34,070 nt of DNA from Methylophaga sp. (GTDB lineage Bacteria; Pseudomonadota; Gammaproteobacteria; Nitrosococcales; Methylophagaceae), in contig NVUI01000013.1 of the NCBI GenBank assembly GCA_002733105.1, positions 26,222-60,291 of the forward strand, written 5' to 3'. This document shows, piece after piece, positions 25,885 through 34,070 of this stretch; position 1 is the stretch's first letter, and every line of letters begins with the position of its first letter. The notes beneath the pieces were generated by a model. The model was not told the DNA's origin and did no database searches. It saw only the letters and a list, made by a program, of their open reading frames with translations. Both the position numbers and the translations under genes were made by a program.

Positions 25885-26613
25885 TTAAGGTGTGATTTTA
25901 TTGTAAATAACGGGCATTTTACCTTGCCATTGCTGCCAAATATCATTGTCAGTGATTAAATCAGCCATAAAGTGAGCAACATTGATTCGGCTAGTCGTTC
26001 CTGCATCAAAAATAGCACTTCGAATCGGTGAAGGATAAATCTCGTAGTCAGAGACTTTATCTTCATTAACCAGACCATCTGGACGCACAGCAGCCCATTC
26101 GATATTGTTATTAGATTGCCCAATCTGGCTACGTAAATAATCAGCCGCCTTCTCATTATCTGAATGAGGCGGGATCAATAAACGAATAAACCCAATAACA
26201 CATTGTTGGGCAAATGAAATCGACTCATCAAGATCACGATTTCTATTACCCGTGGTATTCATCAAGACAAACTTAACGGGTTTTTCTGAAGTATGTGTTT
26301 TGATAGCATCACACAATCGACGAGTAACATCCGTCACCAATAACCGTGGCTGACCATACATACCCTTAAACGTTAGATTGTGTCCTAAGCACGATGCCAC
26401 AGCATCACAACCTTGGGTGTGCAAAGCCATATCTGCATCACTCAGATCAAGCACACTGGCATGGATTATTGATAGATTTTGATGGTTTTTAATCTCATCC
26501 GGAAGATGGTTAGTTGATCGCACAATGATCTTAACCTTCAAGCCGCGATTGAGTAGTTGTTCAACTAATAATCGTCCCGTCGCACCACTTGCACCCACTA
26601 CCAGAGCAGTCAT
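25885..26613 (-). CDS. NAD(P)H-binding oxidoreductase (atypical SDR)
   Basis: MTALVVGASGATGRLLVEQLLNRGLKVKIIVRS; AVRPDGLVNE. Confidence 0.88.
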   Translation of the reverse strand: MTALVVGASGATGRLLVEQLLNRGLKVKIIVRSTNHLPDEIKNHQNLSIIHASVLDLSDADMALHTQGCDAVASCLGHNLTFKGMYGQPRLLVTDVTRRLCDAIKTHTSEKPVKFVLMNTTGNRNRDLDESISFAQQCVIGFIRLLIPPHSDNEKAADYLRSQIGQSNNNIEWAAVRPDGLVNEDKVSDYEIYPSPIRSAIFDAGTTSRINVAHFMADLITDNDIWQQWQGKMPVIYNKITP

Positions 26614-27235
26614 CGATTAATATTCTTAGTTTTTATAAATATCATTACGTTCATCTTTAAAATTGTGTCTAGGAATACTATAGGAATTGTAATATTTTGG
26701 AAGTTATTTAGTAATGACTCTAGATAAAGAGAGTCTTTCCGCTAATAGTTGTTATCAAACCCACCATAAAAATAGACTACATTGATTCGACAGTTTATCT
26801 ATCTCAAAGAATCTATTTCCTGGGAGCAGATAGTTACACATCCTAACTTTAGCTTGCAGTGGCTTCAATCATATTACTTACTGGAGTGACTTAACATCAT
26901 TAGCAGATATGATTTGTGACCCCACAAAGCCACACAAGCTATCATCAATGCGACTTAATAGAATGAAAATATATTGTTTAATTTTCTTGAAACGGAAAAA
27001 AGCAATGATAACTTAGCTGCTGATATTTAGCTGCGATCAAAACTGAAATATGTTATTTATAGCAGAGAAGGGATAAGGGAATATAAATCAATTACTTACT
27101 CTATTTTCAATGATTGGGAGTTAAACAAACCTAGTTTAGGTGATATATAGATGGTTCCACAATTATTTTTTTATAATATGATAGTATTTTAGTATAAGAC
27201 ATTGAAACTAAATAAATAATAAAGGATTATTGGCT

Positions 27236-27319
27236 ATGCGCGTAAAAAATATATACGGAAAGGTGATATACGGACGGTTCCGTATAATAAGCTGTTATGC
27301 CCAAAGGATAATCGAATAA
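27236..27319 (+). CDS. 27-codon leader ORF spanning the left junction of the cassette array
   Basis: ATG 27236, MRVKNIYGKVIYGRFRIISCYAQRIIE, TAA at 27317-27319 overlapping the cassette-1 ATG (TAATG). Purine-rich AAAGGA upstream of its ATG. Too short for confidence on its own. Confidence 0.4.
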   Translation: MRVKNIYGKVIYGRFRIISCYAQRIIE

Positions 27320-27873
27320 TGAATAAATACCTGGCTATTCTTGGACTGATTATTCTGATTTCCGGATGTGCAAACCCTCTGAATAAAGTCACATCCGATA
27401 ATTACGCAGATACATGCTCACAGGCTGAGGATTCCGGCAGACTAGATATCGCCGAGGAGGCTTGCTATAGAGCCGCAGTCAATGTTGAGTGGGGGAATCT
27501 CGGAGATGAGTTAAAATCCGAAAGAATGTACAACCTTGCCAGAATAAAGCGCCGAGTCGGGAAGCTCGATGAAGCGGAGAAGTACTTCATCGAAACAATA
27601 GAAATTGAAGATACTATTACTCCTGCAAGAGAAATACGAATAGGCAGAAGGCTTGCTGAACTTGCGGCCATCTATTATGAACAAGAAAAGTATCAAGAAG
27701 CGGCTCAATATTTAGAACGGCTTTTACCACTATCAAACCTTTATAGCGGAAAAGAGAAGGGGTTCTTGGCCAATCTATACCACCATTACGCTATCGAACT
27801 TAGCGGCAGTGAAATATCACGAAAGCTTGAACTTACCAGCATTGAGCTAGGCTTCAGCGAGGGCGGAAAGTGA
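27319..27873 (+). CDS. Cassette 1: TPR-like lipoprotein
   Basis: MNKYLAILGLIILISGCAN signal with lipobox; helical repeats (LARIKRRVGKLDEAEKYFIETIEIE..., LAAIYYEQEKYQEAAQYLERLL). Confidence 0.8.
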   Translation: MNKYLAILGLIILISGCANPLNKVTSDNYADTCSQAEDSGRLDIAEEACYRAAVNVEWGNLGDELKSERMYNLARIKRRVGKLDEAEKYFIETIEIEDTITPAREIRIGRRLAELAAIYYEQEKYQEAAQYLERLLPLSNLYSGKEKGFLANLYHHYAIELSGSEISRKLELTSIELGFSEGGK

Positions 27874-27874
27874 G

Positions 27875-27928
27875 GCATAACAATACAAGCCATGCGACGC
27901 TATCGCGCGCATGCTTTCAGCGTTAGCT
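27875..27928 (+). other. attC1 recombination site (cassette 1/2 junction)
   Basis: R'' GCATAAC 27875-27881, R' GTTAGCT 27922-27928; stem AAG(C)CATGCG / CGCATGCTT with an extrahelical base. Confidence 0.85.
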
Positions 27929-27947
27929 CTACGAGGAATATTTCAAT

Positions 27948-28292
27948 ATGGAACTTAAGGAATTTATTAAAACTGCATTAACGGAAATTGTTGTTGGTGT
28001 TTCCGAGGCTTCTACTATTGCAACCGAACATGGTGGGTCAGTAGGATCGATGAAGCTTTATGGATATGTTAAAGAAAACAAGGTAATGACTGATGACAAT
28101 GATAGGCCAGTAACAACAGTAGAATTTGATATTGCTCTATCTGAAGCAAATAGCACTGATACAAAAGGTGGGATTGGTGTTTATTTGGGTGCAGTTGGCT
28201 TGGGTTCTCAAGGGGCGTCTCACGGCGAAGCGTCAAGCCATTCAAGAATTAAATTTTCTGTTCCGGTAGTGCTACCAAGTGCCAAGAGCTAA
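27948..28292 (+). CDS. Cassette 2: trypco2-like conserved protein
   Basis: MELKEFIKTALTEIVVGVSEA N-terminus, VEFDIALSEA, GGIGVYLGAVGLGSQG, C-terminal SRIKFSVPVVLP; same architecture as trypsin-co-occurring domain proteins. Confidence 0.6.
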   Translation: MELKEFIKTALTEIVVGVSEASTIATEHGGSVGSMKLYGYVKENKVMTDDNDRPVTTVEFDIALSEANSTDTKGGIGVYLGAVGLGSQGASHGEASSHSRIKFSVPVVLPSAKS

Positions 28293-28317
28293 CAAGACGC
28301 TCCAGTTGACGTTAGGT
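28287..28317 (+). other. attC2, apparently truncated (cassette 2/3 junction)
   Basis: R'' AGCTAAC 28287-28293 and R' GTTAGGT 28311-28317 are only 31 bp apart end to end; left arm AAGACGCTCCAGTTGACG present, complementary right arm absent. Confidence 0.7.
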
Positions 28318-28343
28318 GACCTCACCGTCCTTGGAGTTAATAT

Positions 28344-28775
28344 ATGAATGATGAAAATAAAATCACCAACGGTGGATGCCTGTGTGGTGCAGTTCGATAT
28401 GAAGTAAAAGGGCCACTCAGAGATATAGTGAATTGCCATTGTAGTATGTGCCAGAAATTACATGGAAATTTCGGCCCCCATACAAAAGCAAGAAAGGTAA
28501 ATATCAAAATCACTAATAACGATGGTTTGGCCTGGTACAAGACATCCGAAATAGCCCAAAGAGGTTTCTGTCGAAAGTGTGGTTCAAGTTTATTTTGGGA
28601 ACCATTTAATTTGGACGCAACAGGAATTATCGCTGGATCACTAGATGACAGTACTGGATTAAAAACAATGGGTCATATATTTGTAGGTGAAAAGCCTGAT
28701 TTTTACGAAATCACTGACAATAATCCGCAATTTGTCCACTCATCGGATGGTCAGTTGGTAAATGATTATAAATAG
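28344..28775 (+). CDS. Cassette 3: GFA family protein (CENP-V/GFA zinc fold)
   Basis: GGCLCGAVRYEV, NCHCSMCQKLHG, FCRKCGSSLFWE cysteine motifs. Confidence 0.93.
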   Translation: MNDENKITNGGCLCGAVRYEVKGPLRDIVNCHCSMCQKLHGNFGPHTKARKVNIKITNNDGLAWYKTSEIAQRGFCRKCGSSLFWEPFNLDATGIIAGSLDDSTGLKTMGHIFVGEKPDFYEITDNNPQFVHSSDGQLVNDYK

Positions 28776-28790
28776 TTGGGCATATTAATC

Positions 28791-28889
28791 ACCTAACAAG
28801 AACTTCAAACGGAAAAAATACAGTTGGTTGTTTTCACTCCGTTCAACATTATAACCAACTATATTTTTCCGCTTAAGTAGGCGTTATGT
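28791..28889 (+). other. attC3 (cassette 3/4 junction)
   Basis: R'' ACCTAAC, R' GTTATGT; long imperfect stem CGGAAAAAATACAGTTGGTT / AACCAACTATATTTTTCCG. Confidence 0.92.
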
Positions 28890-28907
28890 CTCTAGGAGTT
28901 TTTCTGC

Positions 28908-29489
28908 ATGGTTTTGCGACCTACATCACAAGAAGAGGTTTTTTTAAGCCTTGCTTACAACAGGTTTTATGATCTTGCCGATGAAATAATTGAAGACTCA
29001 TTTTGGGAACAAGAAGACTGGTATCGTTTTAGTAAAGTGATTAACCTATTTTCAGTTTATGCAGAGTTGTTGGCTTATGAGCCCTTTAAGTATGTTCTTA
29101 AGGCAATTAAGAAACAAAGACCTCCAATGGAATCTGAAATTGGTGGCCCCTTGTTTAAATTTATTAGAAACACTTTTGCTCACTTTCCCTTATTTGAGAG
29201 CTGGAACGAGGTTTGGTTGACAAAAGGCTTAGTAAATTGGCAAAAAGAAGGGCTAACCATTGATCGTTTTCTCAAAAAGTACGCTGGGCATACCGAAATA
29301 AAGTATAGGTTTTGGGAAGCTGAGAAGAAAGAAATGACATATATGAGTATCAATTTTCCAAAAGAGTATGGTGATAATAAAATATATTTAAGCGAGATTC
29401 TCTCTGAAAAAGATGGTGTAAAATTCTCGCTTCTAATGATGCGATATATATTGAACACACAAGTAGAGTCTATTAAGAACGAGACATAA
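28908..29489 (+). CDS. Cassette 4: alpha-helical protein with RNxxxH motif, HEPN-like candidate
   Basis: 193 aa; FKFIRNTFAHFPLFESWNEVW contains R-N-x3-H (RX4H) in a predominantly helical context. Confidence 0.6.
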   Translation: MVLRPTSQEEVFLSLAYNRFYDLADEIIEDSFWEQEDWYRFSKVINLFSVYAELLAYEPFKYVLKAIKKQRPPMESEIGGPLFKFIRNTFAHFPLFESWNEVWLTKGLVNWQKEGLTIDRFLKKYAGHTEIKYRFWEAEKKEMTYMSINFPKEYGDNKIYLSEILSEKDGVKFSLLMMRYILNTQVESIKNET

Positions 29490-29586
29490 CAAGAAAATCA
29501 ACAAGGACACGTAACAGTTGGCTACGTTTCGCTTCGCTACACAATTTTAGCCAACCATTACTTAGCCTGTTATTTAGGCGTTATAC
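29484..29586 (+). other. attC4 (cassette 4/5 junction)
   Basis: R'' ACATAAC, R' GTTATAC; stem GTAACAGTTGGCT / AGCCAACCATTAC. Confidence 0.92.
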
Positions 29587-29603
29587 ACAATATCGGAGAG
29601 TAA

Positions 29604-31151
29604 ATGCCCCTTAGTAGTTCTTTAGTAGAGCAACACTTTCGTGAGACAGAAAAGCTTATACGTAAATTGTCTAGGGACGATGTTGCAGCTTGGCTACTCA
29701 ATACGGGCTACTTTCCCGAATCAAATGTATTGCCACCATCGTTTAAAATTCATGATTATGAGTTGAAGGATAAACCATATAACAGCAATATTAAGGATAT
29801 GGCAAGACGACAACTGACATCGATTTCATATCCAAAATCTTTGCTAACTGACAGAGTGTTTTCGGTTCAAGACCCACGAAATTATCATGATATTGTTTTT
29901 TATCTCCACAGTGAGTGGGAGAATATTCTTAACAGGCTTTACCCAGAAAACACAAAGATATTCTCGTACAGTATGCCTATTCCAGTGGACACAAAGCACC
30001 AAGGATCTGTTGGTAGCTTACGCTCAGGTAGAATGATTTACGAATGGATACGTATGGCTGAAAGTGACCTAGTTATTGATGCCACATCATATAAATATTT
30101 AGCTAAAACGGACATCACTAATTTTTACTCATCCGTGTATACGCATAGTGTTGCTTGGGCTATTTCTGGAAGCCGTGAGACCGCATTTGAAGACAAAAAT
30201 TTTGAATTATTCGGAAACAAAATCGACAAGCTTTTACAGTATTCAAACGACGCTAGAACAAATGGAATACCTGTAGGATCTGCTCTCAGTGATCTTATCG
30301 CCGAAATTCTACTATCTTGGGTCGATGAGAAGGTGTCACTAGAGCTGGATGGTCTTGACTTTTTGGCCGTCCGTTTTAAAGATGATTATCGAATACTGTG
30401 CAATACGGAAGAAGATGCAAAAAGGGTTTTGAATACTATTTCCGAAGAACTAAAAAAAATAAACCTTAGCTTAAACGAAACTAAGACACATATATTCTAC
30501 CTTCCTGACGGCTTATATCGACCTCATGATCGTGAGTATTTTCCTCATTCATTGAAAGAAAAGTCAAAAGTGTCATTTAAAACATTCGAGCATACGCTCT
30601 TGATAGCTTTAGACATACATAGAAAATATCCAGGGACTGGAATTTTGGAGAAGTTTTTTTCAGAGTTGCTTACAAAAGATAAAAGGCTAAAGGTACAGTT
30701 TTCAAAAAGCGAACGACAATGCCTAGTGCAGATGACTAAATTCATATCATTATTGTTTTTAATAAGACGTGAGTCAGAAAAAACATTGAGTCACGTACTT
30801 AGTCTTATTGAAATCATCTACTTAAAAGACAATTCATATAAGAAAAAGCTAAAACCGTTTATCAGGCAGATAGTTGAAAAAGAATTAGTGGCGGCATCTA
30901 ACAAAAGTTCAGCTTTTGATGTTGTTTGGTATATATTTTTCTCTCGTTATATCGGATTGGGGATCACCAATTTTAGAAGCTTGGTCACAAATGAAAAAGT
31001 AGCTAACAATATCTTTGTTCAATGCATTATTACTAGTCAAGACAAGCTGTATAGTAACTCTGGAATAAAACTGTATAGAAAACCATCAGAATGTAAGGGT
31101 GTCAGTCTTGCTTGTAGACTTGATATATTCAAACGTCGTGAACGTGTATAA
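29604..31151 (+). CDS. Cassette 5: reverse transcriptase, defence-associated/Abi-like (unknown-group) type
   Basis: RT motif A YLAKTDITNFYSSVYTHSVAWAI; motif B NGIPVGSALSDLIAEILLSWVD; motif C AVRFKDDYRIL; motif D LSLNETKTHIFYLP; about 200-aa helical C-terminal extension; no maturase, HNH or group II intron sequence recognised. Confidence 0.88.
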   Translation: MPLSSSLVEQHFRETEKLIRKLSRDDVAAWLLNTGYFPESNVLPPSFKIHDYELKDKPYNSNIKDMARRQLTSISYPKSLLTDRVFSVQDPRNYHDIVFYLHSEWENILNRLYPENTKIFSYSMPIPVDTKHQGSVGSLRSGRMIYEWIRMAESDLVIDATSYKYLAKTDITNFYSSVYTHSVAWAISGSRETAFEDKNFELFGNKIDKLLQYSNDARTNGIPVGSALSDLIAEILLSWVDEKVSLELDGLDFLAVRFKDDYRILCNTEEDAKRVLNTISEELKKINLSLNETKTHIFYLPDGLYRPHDREYFPHSLKEKSKVSFKTFEHTLLIALDIHRKYPGTGILEKFFSELLTKDKRLKVQFSKSERQCLVQMTKFISLLFLIRRESEKTLSHVLSLIEIIYLKDNSYKKKLKPFIRQIVEKELVAASNKSSAFDVVWYIFFSRYIGLGITNFRSLVTNEKVANNIFVQCIITSQDKLYSNSGIKLYRKPSECKGVSLACRLDIFKRRERV

Positions 31152-31262
31152 CAAGTAGCTGCACCCGACCCATACTGCGTAGCTGAATTTGTGTATTTCG
31201 CTGCGCTTCATAATCACACAAATACAGCCACTCCGCATGGGCGGGTGAGCTAGGCGTTAGAA
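31146..31262 (+). other. attC5 (cassette 5/6 junction)
   Basis: R'' GTATAAC overlapping the RT stop codon, R' GTTAGAA; arms CCCATACTGCGTAGCTGAATTTGTGTATT / AATCACACAAATACAGCCACTCCGCATGGGC. Confidence 0.92.
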
Positions 31263-31277
31263 GGCAATGAGAACCCA

Positions 31278-31871
31278 ATGAAGATTTCAAGTTCCAAAAT
31301 TGATCTATCCAACGGCTGGGAGTCGATAGCGGATAGCTTTATTGAAAATCGCAATACAGATATTGGTGTGTCGACCGTAGAAGAATGGTCAAAGTCTTTT
31401 AAGCTAGATGCCTCAATTTTGGATATAGGGTGTGGGTTTGGAGTTCCTCATTCGCAACTTTTGGCAAATACCGGTTTTAAGGTATATGGAATAGATGCAT
31501 CTCAAACACTGATAAATGAATTCCAAAGGAGGTTTCCTCAGGTATTAGCCAAATGCGAAACTGTTGAGGAATCTAGCTTTTTTAACAAAAAATTTGATGG
31601 GATTATTGCTATAGGCTTAATGTTTATATTATCTGAACAAACCCAATTAAAAGTATTAACAAAAGTTGCTGAAGCGCTGAATACTAATGGTAGATTCTTA
31701 TTTACGTCACCTTATCAAATTTGTGAATGGGTAGATATTTTGACTGGTCTGAAATCTCAATCTTTAGGAAAAGCTGCTTATGTGGAAGCACTTTCTAGGC
31801 AAGGGCTTTCATTGGTAGCTGAATATTCTGATGAGGGAGAAAATAATTATTTCGATTTCATCAAATTATAG
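31278..31871 (+). CDS. Cassette 6: class I SAM-dependent methyltransferase
   Basis: ASILDIGCGFGVPHSQLLANTGFKVYGIDAS motif I/II; FDGIIAIGLMFIL; ALNTNGRFLFTSP. Confidence 0.9.
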   Translation: MKISSSKIDLSNGWESIADSFIENRNTDIGVSTVEEWSKSFKLDASILDIGCGFGVPHSQLLANTGFKVYGIDASQTLINEFQRRFPQVLAKCETVEESSFFNKKFDGIIAIGLMFILSEQTQLKVLTKVAEALNTNGRFLFTSPYQICEWVDILTGLKSQSLGKAAYVEALSRQGLSLVAEYSDEGENNYFDFIKL

Positions 31872-31886
31872 GTATGTGCAGTTGCC

Positions 31887-31976
31887 TTCTAACAAACGCA
31901 TCAAGTTTGCTCCAGCCTACGGCTTCCGCCGGACGCAAAAACCTTCGGTTTTGCGCCGCTTATGCGGGCGTTAGAA
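31887..31976 (+). other. attC6 (cassette 6/7 junction)
   Basis: R'' TTCTAAC, R' GTTAGAA (exact complements); inner stem GACGCAAAAACC / GGTTTTGCGCC. Confidence 0.92.
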
Positions 31977-32024
31977 CTCCAAAAGCTCGCAGCTGTCCTA
32001 AATATGTCCTATAGTTGTCTTTTT

Positions 32025-32046
32025 CTTAAGGTACAGAAGCCTTAAG
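32025..32046. promoter_or_regulatory. Palindrome upstream of XRE gene, candidate operator
   Basis: CTTAAGG-TACAGAAG-CCTTAAG perfect 7-bp inverted repeat in the unusually long (about 130 nt) 5' leader of cassette 7. Confidence 0.4.
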
Positions 32047-32110
32047 AGTTTCCTATAAAACACTGCATACTAGTCGAGCCTTCAAACTAAACCAAAAGTC
32101 AAGAATAGAT

Positions 32111-32536
32111 ATGAAAATCAATGCTGAATTAGTTTTAAAGTTAAGAAACCAAAATTCGTGGACTCAAGACGAACTAGCTATTGCATCAGGTCTTAATCTG
32201 AAAACCATACAGCGGATAGAAAAGAAGGCATCCGCATCTCTTCAGTCTAAGAAAGCGCTAGCATCAGTATTCAACATAGATATTCAAGACCTCGACTATG
32301 AGGAACTACAAATGAAGCCATGTTCGGAATGTAAATCAGACAGAGTATATCAATATAAAGAGCCAATGGAGTTTGGTGGGTTTGGCGGAGAGCTACTACC
32401 AAATTTGGCACCAAGCTTGTTTTCCCTGGCTAAGTTTCTTCCAGTCGTATGCTTTGATTGTGGTCACATTAGGTTTTTTGCATCGAAGGAAGCCAGAGAT
32501 AAACTCGATGTTTCAGATCATTGGAAACAAATATGA
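32111..32536 (+). CDS. Cassette 7: XRE-family HTH protein with C-terminal zinc-ribbon-like CxxC pairs
   Basis: LRNQNSWTQDELAIASGLNLKTIQRIEKKASASLQSKKALASVF HTH; MKPCSECKSDRVY ... VVCFDCGHIRFF. Confidence 0.88.
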   Translation: MKINAELVLKLRNQNSWTQDELAIASGLNLKTIQRIEKKASASLQSKKALASVFNIDIQDLDYEELQMKPCSECKSDRVYQYKEPMEFGGFGGELLPNLAPSLFSLAKFLPVVCFDCGHIRFFASKEARDKLDVSDHWKQI

Positions 32537-32542
32537 GTCCAG

Positions 32543-32626
32543 TTCTAACAATGGTGTCCAGCGGATGGTTGTGTAGTTGGCTGAAAAACGCCAACTACAC
32601 AACCACCGCTGACACCGACGTTATGT
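32543..32626 (+). other. attC7 (cassette 7/8 junction)
   Basis: R'' TTCTAAC, R' GTTATGT; near-perfect stem GTGTCCAGCGGATGGTTGTGTAGTTGGC / GCCAACTACACAACCACCGCTGACAC. Confidence 0.94.
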
Positions 32627-32666
32627 GCCTAGTGTTCGCGTATTGTAATCCATACAAATATAGAAC

Positions 32667-33269
32667 TTATTCGCTCATATATTTCAAACCCACTTTGAAT
32701 TGAGTTGTAACTTGAGCCACTCTTTCACCGAGAAAGCTTGCTGTTTGTAAGTCTGCTAAAGGGGGAGTAACTTCAGCTCCTTCATCAGCATTCGCTTGTG
32801 CTGCCGCACCAAGCCAATAACCAAGACGATTTAGGTCTTTCTCAGAGCCAGTCGATGAATTATTTGCTGGAGGAAGCCCTAAATTAACCCAATGCATACC
32901 ATGCTGTGCCGCAAATATAGAAAATTGAGATAATGTTTCAGATTTATCACCAGCCTGTGAAGCTGAAATTGTAAATCCTGCAGCAATTTTATTTTTCCAT
33001 TTAAAATGCGGATAAAATACATTTGTGGATGATGCATCCATAAAAGCTTTAAATTGAGCAGTTGCAGATCCCATATAAGTTGGTGAGCCAAATATTATAG
33101 CATCAGCTTTTTCCAACTCCCCCCAAGCACTGAATTTACCATCTACTTCATACATGGTGGCTTGTGCTCCAAATTTTTCTATTCCGCTTGCTACAGCTGT
33201 TGCCTGTTTAGCGGTATGACCATGTTCACTATGGTAAACAACTGCAATTAATACTGGTAAATCTTTCAT
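32667..33269 (-). CDS. Cassette 8: flavodoxin/WrbA-like NADPH-dependent FMN reductase family
   Basis: Start MKDLPVLIAVVYHSEHGHTAKQATAVASG at 33269; DAIIFGSPTYMGSATAQFKAFMD; opposite to cassette polarity. Confidence 0.9.
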   Translation of the reverse strand: MKDLPVLIAVVYHSEHGHTAKQATAVASGIEKFGAQATMYEVDGKFSAWGELEKADAIIFGSPTYMGSATAQFKAFMDASSTNVFYPHFKWKNKIAAGFTISASQAGDKSETLSQFSIFAAQHGMHWVNLGLPPANNSSTGSEKDLNRLGYWLGAAAQANADEGAEVTPPLADLQTASFLGERVAQVTTQFKVGLKYMSE

Positions 33270-33292
33270 GTTATTCCTATTTATACTGATAC

Positions 33293-33315
33293 AGTGTTGC
33301 CAGCACAGCAACACT
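33293..33315. promoter_or_regulatory. Inverted repeat between the Rrf2 gene and the flavodoxin gene
   Basis: AGTGTTGC-CAGCACA-GCAACACT, perfect 8-bp arms, immediately upstream of the flavodoxin start. Confidence 0.4.
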
Positions 33316-33326
33316 TTGGGTTAAAA

Positions 33327-33779
33327 TTACAAGCTATTTAAGAAACCACCATGAGTTACGCCTCGCTCAGATACAGCCGAAATGATTTCACTTAATGAGA
33401 CATTATTAAGCTTTTGTTCAAGCGCATCTTGAGCATCATCCATCACAGGGGTTAAAATGGGTAGAATATTGCGCCCAACAATACAATCATTGTTTGGAGG
33501 GGCTCGATGTGTTGCGAATATCAAATCATTTTCCATTGATTTATAAATATCAAGTAGCGTTATCTTTTCAGGAGAAGTACTTAACAGTGCTCCTCCTCCC
33601 TTTCCAAGCTGAGCGGTTGTTAATCCTGACGAATTAAGCATGCTTAATATACGACGGATAACAGTGGAATGTGTATTAACGCTACTTGCGATCATATCAG
33701 ACGGTACAGGCTTCCCCTTTTGGAGAGCTATAGAGGTTAGAACATGAACGGCAACAGCAAATCTAGTACTTGTAGTCAT
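33327..33779 (-). CDS. Cassette 8: Rrf2 family transcriptional regulator
   Basis: TSTRFAVAVHVLTSIAL, PSDMIASSVNTHSTVIRRILSMLNSSGLTTAQLGKGGGALLSTSPEKITLLDIY. Confidence 0.92.
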   Translation of the reverse strand: MTTSTRFAVAVHVLTSIALQKGKPVPSDMIASSVNTHSTVIRRILSMLNSSGLTTAQLGKGGGALLSTSPEKITLLDIYKSMENDLIFATHRAPPNNDCIVGRNILPILTPVMDDAQDALEQKLNNVSLSEIISAVSERGVTHGGFLNSL

Positions 33780-33811
33780 GCATCTATGGTAAACAAGTGT
33801 GCTCGCTATAG

Positions 33812-33826
33812 CAACATATAATGTTG
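33812..33826. promoter_or_regulatory. Short palindrome upstream of the Rrf2 gene
   Basis: CAACAT-ATA-ATGTTG within the promoter region of the minus-strand Rrf2 gene. Confidence 0.3.
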
Positions 33827-33879
33827 GGTTTATTATTTAAATTAACATACTGATTTAATAATGTTAAATTATCATAGGC

Positions 33880-33978
33880 ACATAACAAGTCACTCAAAAG
33901 GACAAATAACAGTTGGTTTTTGCTCCTTCGTCGCTTATTTTAACCAACTATTATTTGCCTCTTAGTGGGGCGTTATGT
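33880..33978 (+). other. attC8 (cassette 8/9 junction)
   Basis: R'' ACATAAC, R' GTTATGT; arms AAATAACAGTTGGTT / AACCAACTATTATTT. Confidence 0.92.
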
Positions 33979-33987
33979 GTAAATTCC

Positions 33988-34070
33988 ATGGATCATAATG
34001 AAGTCAAAAATATCCTGAAAAATTGGCTTAACGGCTCTCTTGATTCTCATGAATGGGATGATTTTATTTC
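33988..34070 (+). CDS. Cassette 9: hypothetical protein, truncated by window end
   Basis: ATG 33988: MDHNEVKNILKNWLNGSLDSHEWDDFI..., right after the attC8 R' box. Confidence 0.6.
   Translation, partial: MDHNEVKNILKNWLNGSLDSHEWDDFI

Follow-up and report, generated by a model that had tools for sequence, protein, structure and literature searches.

A UG14 reverse transcriptase gene carried as an integron cassette in Methylophaga sp.

A reverse transcriptase (RT) gene of the UG14 group fills a complete integron cassette in a Methylophaga sp. contig, and an attC-type cassette context surrounds all five UG14 genes found in this analysis. UG14 is thus apparently a DRT lineage resident in integrons. 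The group itself is already known; as far as the literature searched shows (Mestre 2022 on the UG/Abi groups being outside it), its apparent residence in integron cassettes is undescribed. This suggests that the integron, and not prophages or defence islands, is the vehicle of one DRT lineage, a notable lifestyle for a known group in a setting already recognised as a biobank of defence genes. By analogy with its characterised relatives, the UG14 cassette is probably a portable anti-virus gene. The stretch of DNA analysed, called the window hereafter, is 34,070 nucleotides long, and all positions refer to it.

The reverse transcriptase and its family

The RT is a protein of 515 amino acids encoded at 29604-31151 on the plus strand. 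The open reading frame is intact and contains the RT motifs quoted in an earlier reading made from the sequence only; the set is complete, that is, motif A TDITNFY (D170), motif B GIPVGSALSD, motif C RFKDD (D260 and D261) and motif D LNETKT. The Pfam domain RVT_1 matches above its cut-off (1.1e-14). In an alignment of the five UG14 proteins, the catalytic D170, D260 and D261 are invariant, and so are Y36 and Y59, which sit in the N-terminal region matching the priming loop and are the candidate priming residues. Tyr61 of Abi-P2 aligns with Phe47 of UG14 (the column being deduced from the Tyr46/Tyr61 spacing), and therefore the priming residue may be another one.

Profile search with PADLOC gave RT_UG14 (PDLC03751) as the best match (E=6.4e-204, 676 bits, residues 6-511 of 515). 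The next models, Drt6, AbiP2 and Drt4, lie between 1e-52 and 1e-61; Drt6, the second-best model, reaches 206 bits (2.1e-61), far under the UG14 score. The Abi-P2 profile gives 193 bits against 676 bits for UG14, which does not make the protein an Abi-P2, and the NCBIfam Drt4 model gives 152.5 bits, below its cut-off of 450. In a tree of 18 proteins from the loci found in the present analysis, which contains no DRT6 row, the five UG14 proteins form a single clade (100/99), which has DRT4 as its neighbour (85/83) and is separate from that of Abi-P2 (100/99). Both the best full-length profile match and a clade separate from DRT4 and Abi-P2 thus place the protein in UG14, with which it shares motif pattern and length and from which no difference excludes it. 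The sequence-only reading had proposed a stand-alone RT of the UG/Abi type, and this is borne out, the nearest relatives including proven anti-phage RTs. It had also called the RT divergent, which is true relative to textbook RTs only, and possibly a new branch, which it is not, because it is a full-length member of a group already present in PADLOC in 2023.

DRT4 (UG15) resembles UG14 as a single-gene RT of similar size and two-part layout, but it forms another clade and its motif C reads R(Y/H)IDD in the three aligned DRT4 rows in place of RFKDD. The motif C of Abi-P2 is RYRDD, and Abi-P2 relatives, unlike UG14, were found in P2-like phages in the present searches. Among solved chains, the closest by sequence are Abi-P2 (7r08, the best), DRT4/UG15 and a DRT6 fusion. 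By fold, DRT4 comes top, followed by UG15, Abi-P2, AbiK and DRT6, the top folds being of class 1 UG/Abi enzymes; this ranking derives from a weak AlphaFold model (pLDDT 57, pTM 0.52), lends weak support and is not independent, because the multiple alignment behind the model contained Abi-P2 rows. The predicted C-terminus is helical, residues above 410 being mostly below pLDDT 50. A viral fold library returned generic polymerases only. An earlier model built from three near-identical rows (pLDDT 37) was discarded.

The cassette and the apparent integron residence of UG14

The RT gene lies in cassette 5 of the array, at 29581-31256 on the plus strand (1676 bp). Head GTTATACAC and 3' core R'' GTGTATAAC match each other perfectly as reverse complements, and all eight complete cassettes of the array show such a self-match of 8-12 nt between the head, counted from the upstream crossover G (GTT...), and their own attC R''. 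Because of this complementarity the cassette ends are fixed to the base, and the earlier description of an RT gene filling a cassette between two attC sites proved right in its coordinates and exact in its edges. The 5' boundary is the attC of cassette 4 (29481-29586, plus strand). The RT cassette's own attC occupies 31144-31262 on the plus strand and includes the core sites R'' and R'; the RT stop TAA (31149-31151) belongs to R''. In a palindrome scan, attC-like palindromes scored 13.8 at 31149-31256 and 10.7 at 29499-29569, before the RT cassette, while dinucleotide shuffles gave 0.12 per 10 kb at scores of at least 10 and 0 at scores of at least 11. The cassette structure is far beyond chance. 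Besides the ORF, the cassette contains a 23-nt leader (29581-29603, plus strand) with a Shine-Dalgarno-like GGAGA, similar in the two closest relatives, and 105 nt of attC past the stop. A promoter scan gave nothing above shuffles.

The array of eight complete cassettes extends over 27295-33972 on the plus strand and continues to the end of the window, which is also the end of the contig (C3, 60,291 bases). It is preceded by an attI-like region (26968-27298, plus strand), alignable over its whole length to one beside the intI of the genome. This integron integrase is encoded on another contig of the assembly (G000:C8; TIGR02249, 412.7 bits), where an attI-like region and cassettes come after it. 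Self-complementary attC cores, exact ends and an IntI in the genome together identify the element as an integron cassette.

Close relatives of the RT were few. Among 85,462 species genomes scanned, two carried one, an Alcanivoracaceae MAG (L002, 91%) and Vibrio genomosp. F10 (L003, 87%). Whole-genome searches added two deep relatives, one in the window's own family (G792, locus L030, 33% over the full alignment) and one in G1319 (L029, 43%), both confirmed as UG14 by PADLOC. UG14 was found in 1 of 326 Vibrionaceae, in 2 of 249 genomes from the order of the Alcanivoracaceae MAG and in 2 of 63 from the order of the window; in broader draws of 274, 369 and 399 genomes the centre genome alone reached UG14 level. 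The group is rare. Within the sensitivity of the searches, no close relatives occurred in plasmids, phage records, IMG/VR or E. coli. UG14-profile matches of 1e-40 to 1e-52 in other genomes proved to be Abi-P2 or DRT4 where they were re-scanned with PADLOC. A genome related to that of the window has a Drt3b gene directly downstream of a second RT gene (L016, 469-3434), probably a DRT3 pair.

With the exception of the window, the UG14 genes were found by protein search and not by way of the integron. In all five loci, the TAAC core of the next attC begins with the stop TAA of the RT; this was seen in 0 of 10 other class-1 RT loci (Abi-P2, DRT4 and Drt3b) handled alike. IntI adjoins the array in the Alcanivoracaceae MAG (397 bits) and in G792 (441 bits), the RT cassette being third from IntI in the former and second in the latter. 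The Vibrio contig of 3.3 kb has four attC sites and the G1319 contig of 4.7 kb has two. Three attC scores lie below the threshold of 10 (L002 5' 8.3, L029 5' 7.0 and L030 3' 6.9); the L002 5' and L030 3' sites rest on position and core motif only, and the 5' edge of L029 is not claimed. The five loci amount to three independent UG14 lineages, because the three close copies represent one recent dispersal.

The coding regions of these three copies share 83-90% identity in DNA and 87-91% in protein. Their dN/dS of 0.065-0.096 indicates strong purifying selection and therefore a working protein. The UG14 cassette has spread between genera. The attC hairpins of the window and of the Alcanivoracaceae MAG are alike for the first 20-odd bases and then diverge, and that of Vibrio is of another type, longer than that of the MAG; since the hairpins are not simple copies, ORF and recombination site have been re-combined.

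Proposed function and alternative readings

The literature searched contains no functional, phage or biochemical data on UG14. Abi-P2 and AbiK carry out protein-primed DNA synthesis on their own tyrosine without a template (PMC9508834), and the random single-stranded DNA of DRT4 turns toxic once its 3' end is protected by a phage protein to which DRT6 also responds (PMC13213688, PMC13314766). From these analogies we infer DNA synthesis, priming, oligomer, defence and trigger of UG14, and the reading favoured here, with somewhat better than even confidence, is that the RT alone acts as an abortive-infection enzyme performing protein-primed, template-independent synthesis of single-stranded DNA, in a cassette mobilised by the integron integrase. 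The enzyme would assemble as a trimer or hexamer, as do Abi-P2, AbiK and DRT4, would use Tyr36 or Tyr59 of its own N-terminal loop as primer and would make single-stranded DNA with no nucleic acid as template. During phage infection, a build-up or stabilisation of this DNA would bring cell growth to a halt. Expression may come from upstream read-through or follow shuffling to a position next to attI, and the cassette would move through IntI excision and insertion at its attC. Because it consists of just the leader, the ORF and the attC, the cassette cannot accommodate an additional ncRNA of the DRT2 or DRT9 type, which fits a single-gene system. The mechanism is constrained accordingly, since the cassette offers the enzyme nothing beyond its ORF, the 23-nt leader and a freely varying attC.

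The RT might instead be templated by RNA, like DRT2, DRT9 and DRT10, several DRTs being known to require ncRNAs (PMC12039810, PMC12483538, PMC12632851). The attC is structured and, apart from the leader, the sole non-coding part of the cassette, so its hairpin transcript is one candidate template, and a host RNA from elsewhere in the genome may act in trans. However, the attC hairpins differ among cassettes whose proteins are 87-91% identical, which argues against attC as a specific RNA template; the leader has a length of 23 nt, Rfam has no match in 26600-34070, synonymous changes occur in every 25-codon block of the ORF with none free of them, and in the tree UG14 falls next to DRT4, an RT that works as a single gene and without a template. 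An RNA template is accordingly considered unlikely. About as doubtful is a role outside defence, for example in stress or regulation, with the integron location incidental. The function of most integron cassettes is unknown, and no defence gene was recognised among the seven neighbours in the other UG14 loci; nevertheless, the relatives of known function, Abi-P2, AbiK, DRT4 and DRT6, are anti-phage, and in V. cholerae, expression revealed anti-phage activity in about 10% of integron cassettes (PMC12409362).

A further rival is that the gene encodes the RT of a group II intron or of a retron trapped in the array. The shared RVT_1 domain speaks for it, and the sequence-only reading had named such a placement as what would overturn its proposal. 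This reading fails because the profile scores are low (group II model 56 bits, cut-off 300; retron St85 model 34.9 bits, cut-off 235) and Rfam finds neither intron nor msr RNA in the array; the cassette, moreover, offers no space for an intron or msr/msd RNA, and the probability left to it is negligible. A bolder extension of the favoured reading makes UG14 an obligate integron-cassette lineage whose random single-stranded DNA, triggered by phage, loads RecA, induces SOS and IntI and shuffles the array during infection. The cassette-lineage half is directly supported and the ssDNA/SOS/IntI half is speculation; as a whole it is very improbable.

Anti-phage genes abound in integron cassettes, and integrons are established as stores of such genes (PMC12409362). 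The cassettes described by Darracq 2025, Kieffer 2025 and Getz 2025 likewise carry defence-type genes as single attC cassettes; the review covering them (PMC12409362) mentions no reverse transcriptase. A self-contained cassette of 1.7 kb in a named Vibrio species makes UG14 easy to test.

Other features of the arrays

Among seven window cassette proteins tested with PADLOC, none stands out as the product of a further known defence gene. The protein of cassette 4 (193 aa, 28908-29489) has a sub-threshold HEPN-like match alone (PF18736, E 0.07). In G792, the UG14 cassette is preceded by the cassette nearest to IntI, whose 347-aa ORF (L030, 11459-12502) has no NCBIfam or PADLOC match. The attI-like region of the window (26968-27298, considered together with L022, 2479-2805) is the second of the genome; it adjoins NmrA-like and YaeQ genes, is not accompanied by intI and may be a duplicated attI, an intI-less array or a strain mix in the MAG. 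A TPR cassette that is first in the window array is also second on contig C8. Cassette 2 terminates in a very short attC of about 30 nt (28285-28316), probably deleted internally. Finally, cassette 8 (32621-33972) contains two minus-strand genes, one for a WrbA-like flavoprotein and one for an Rrf2 regulator, which run against the direction of the array and possibly form a self-regulated two-gene cassette.
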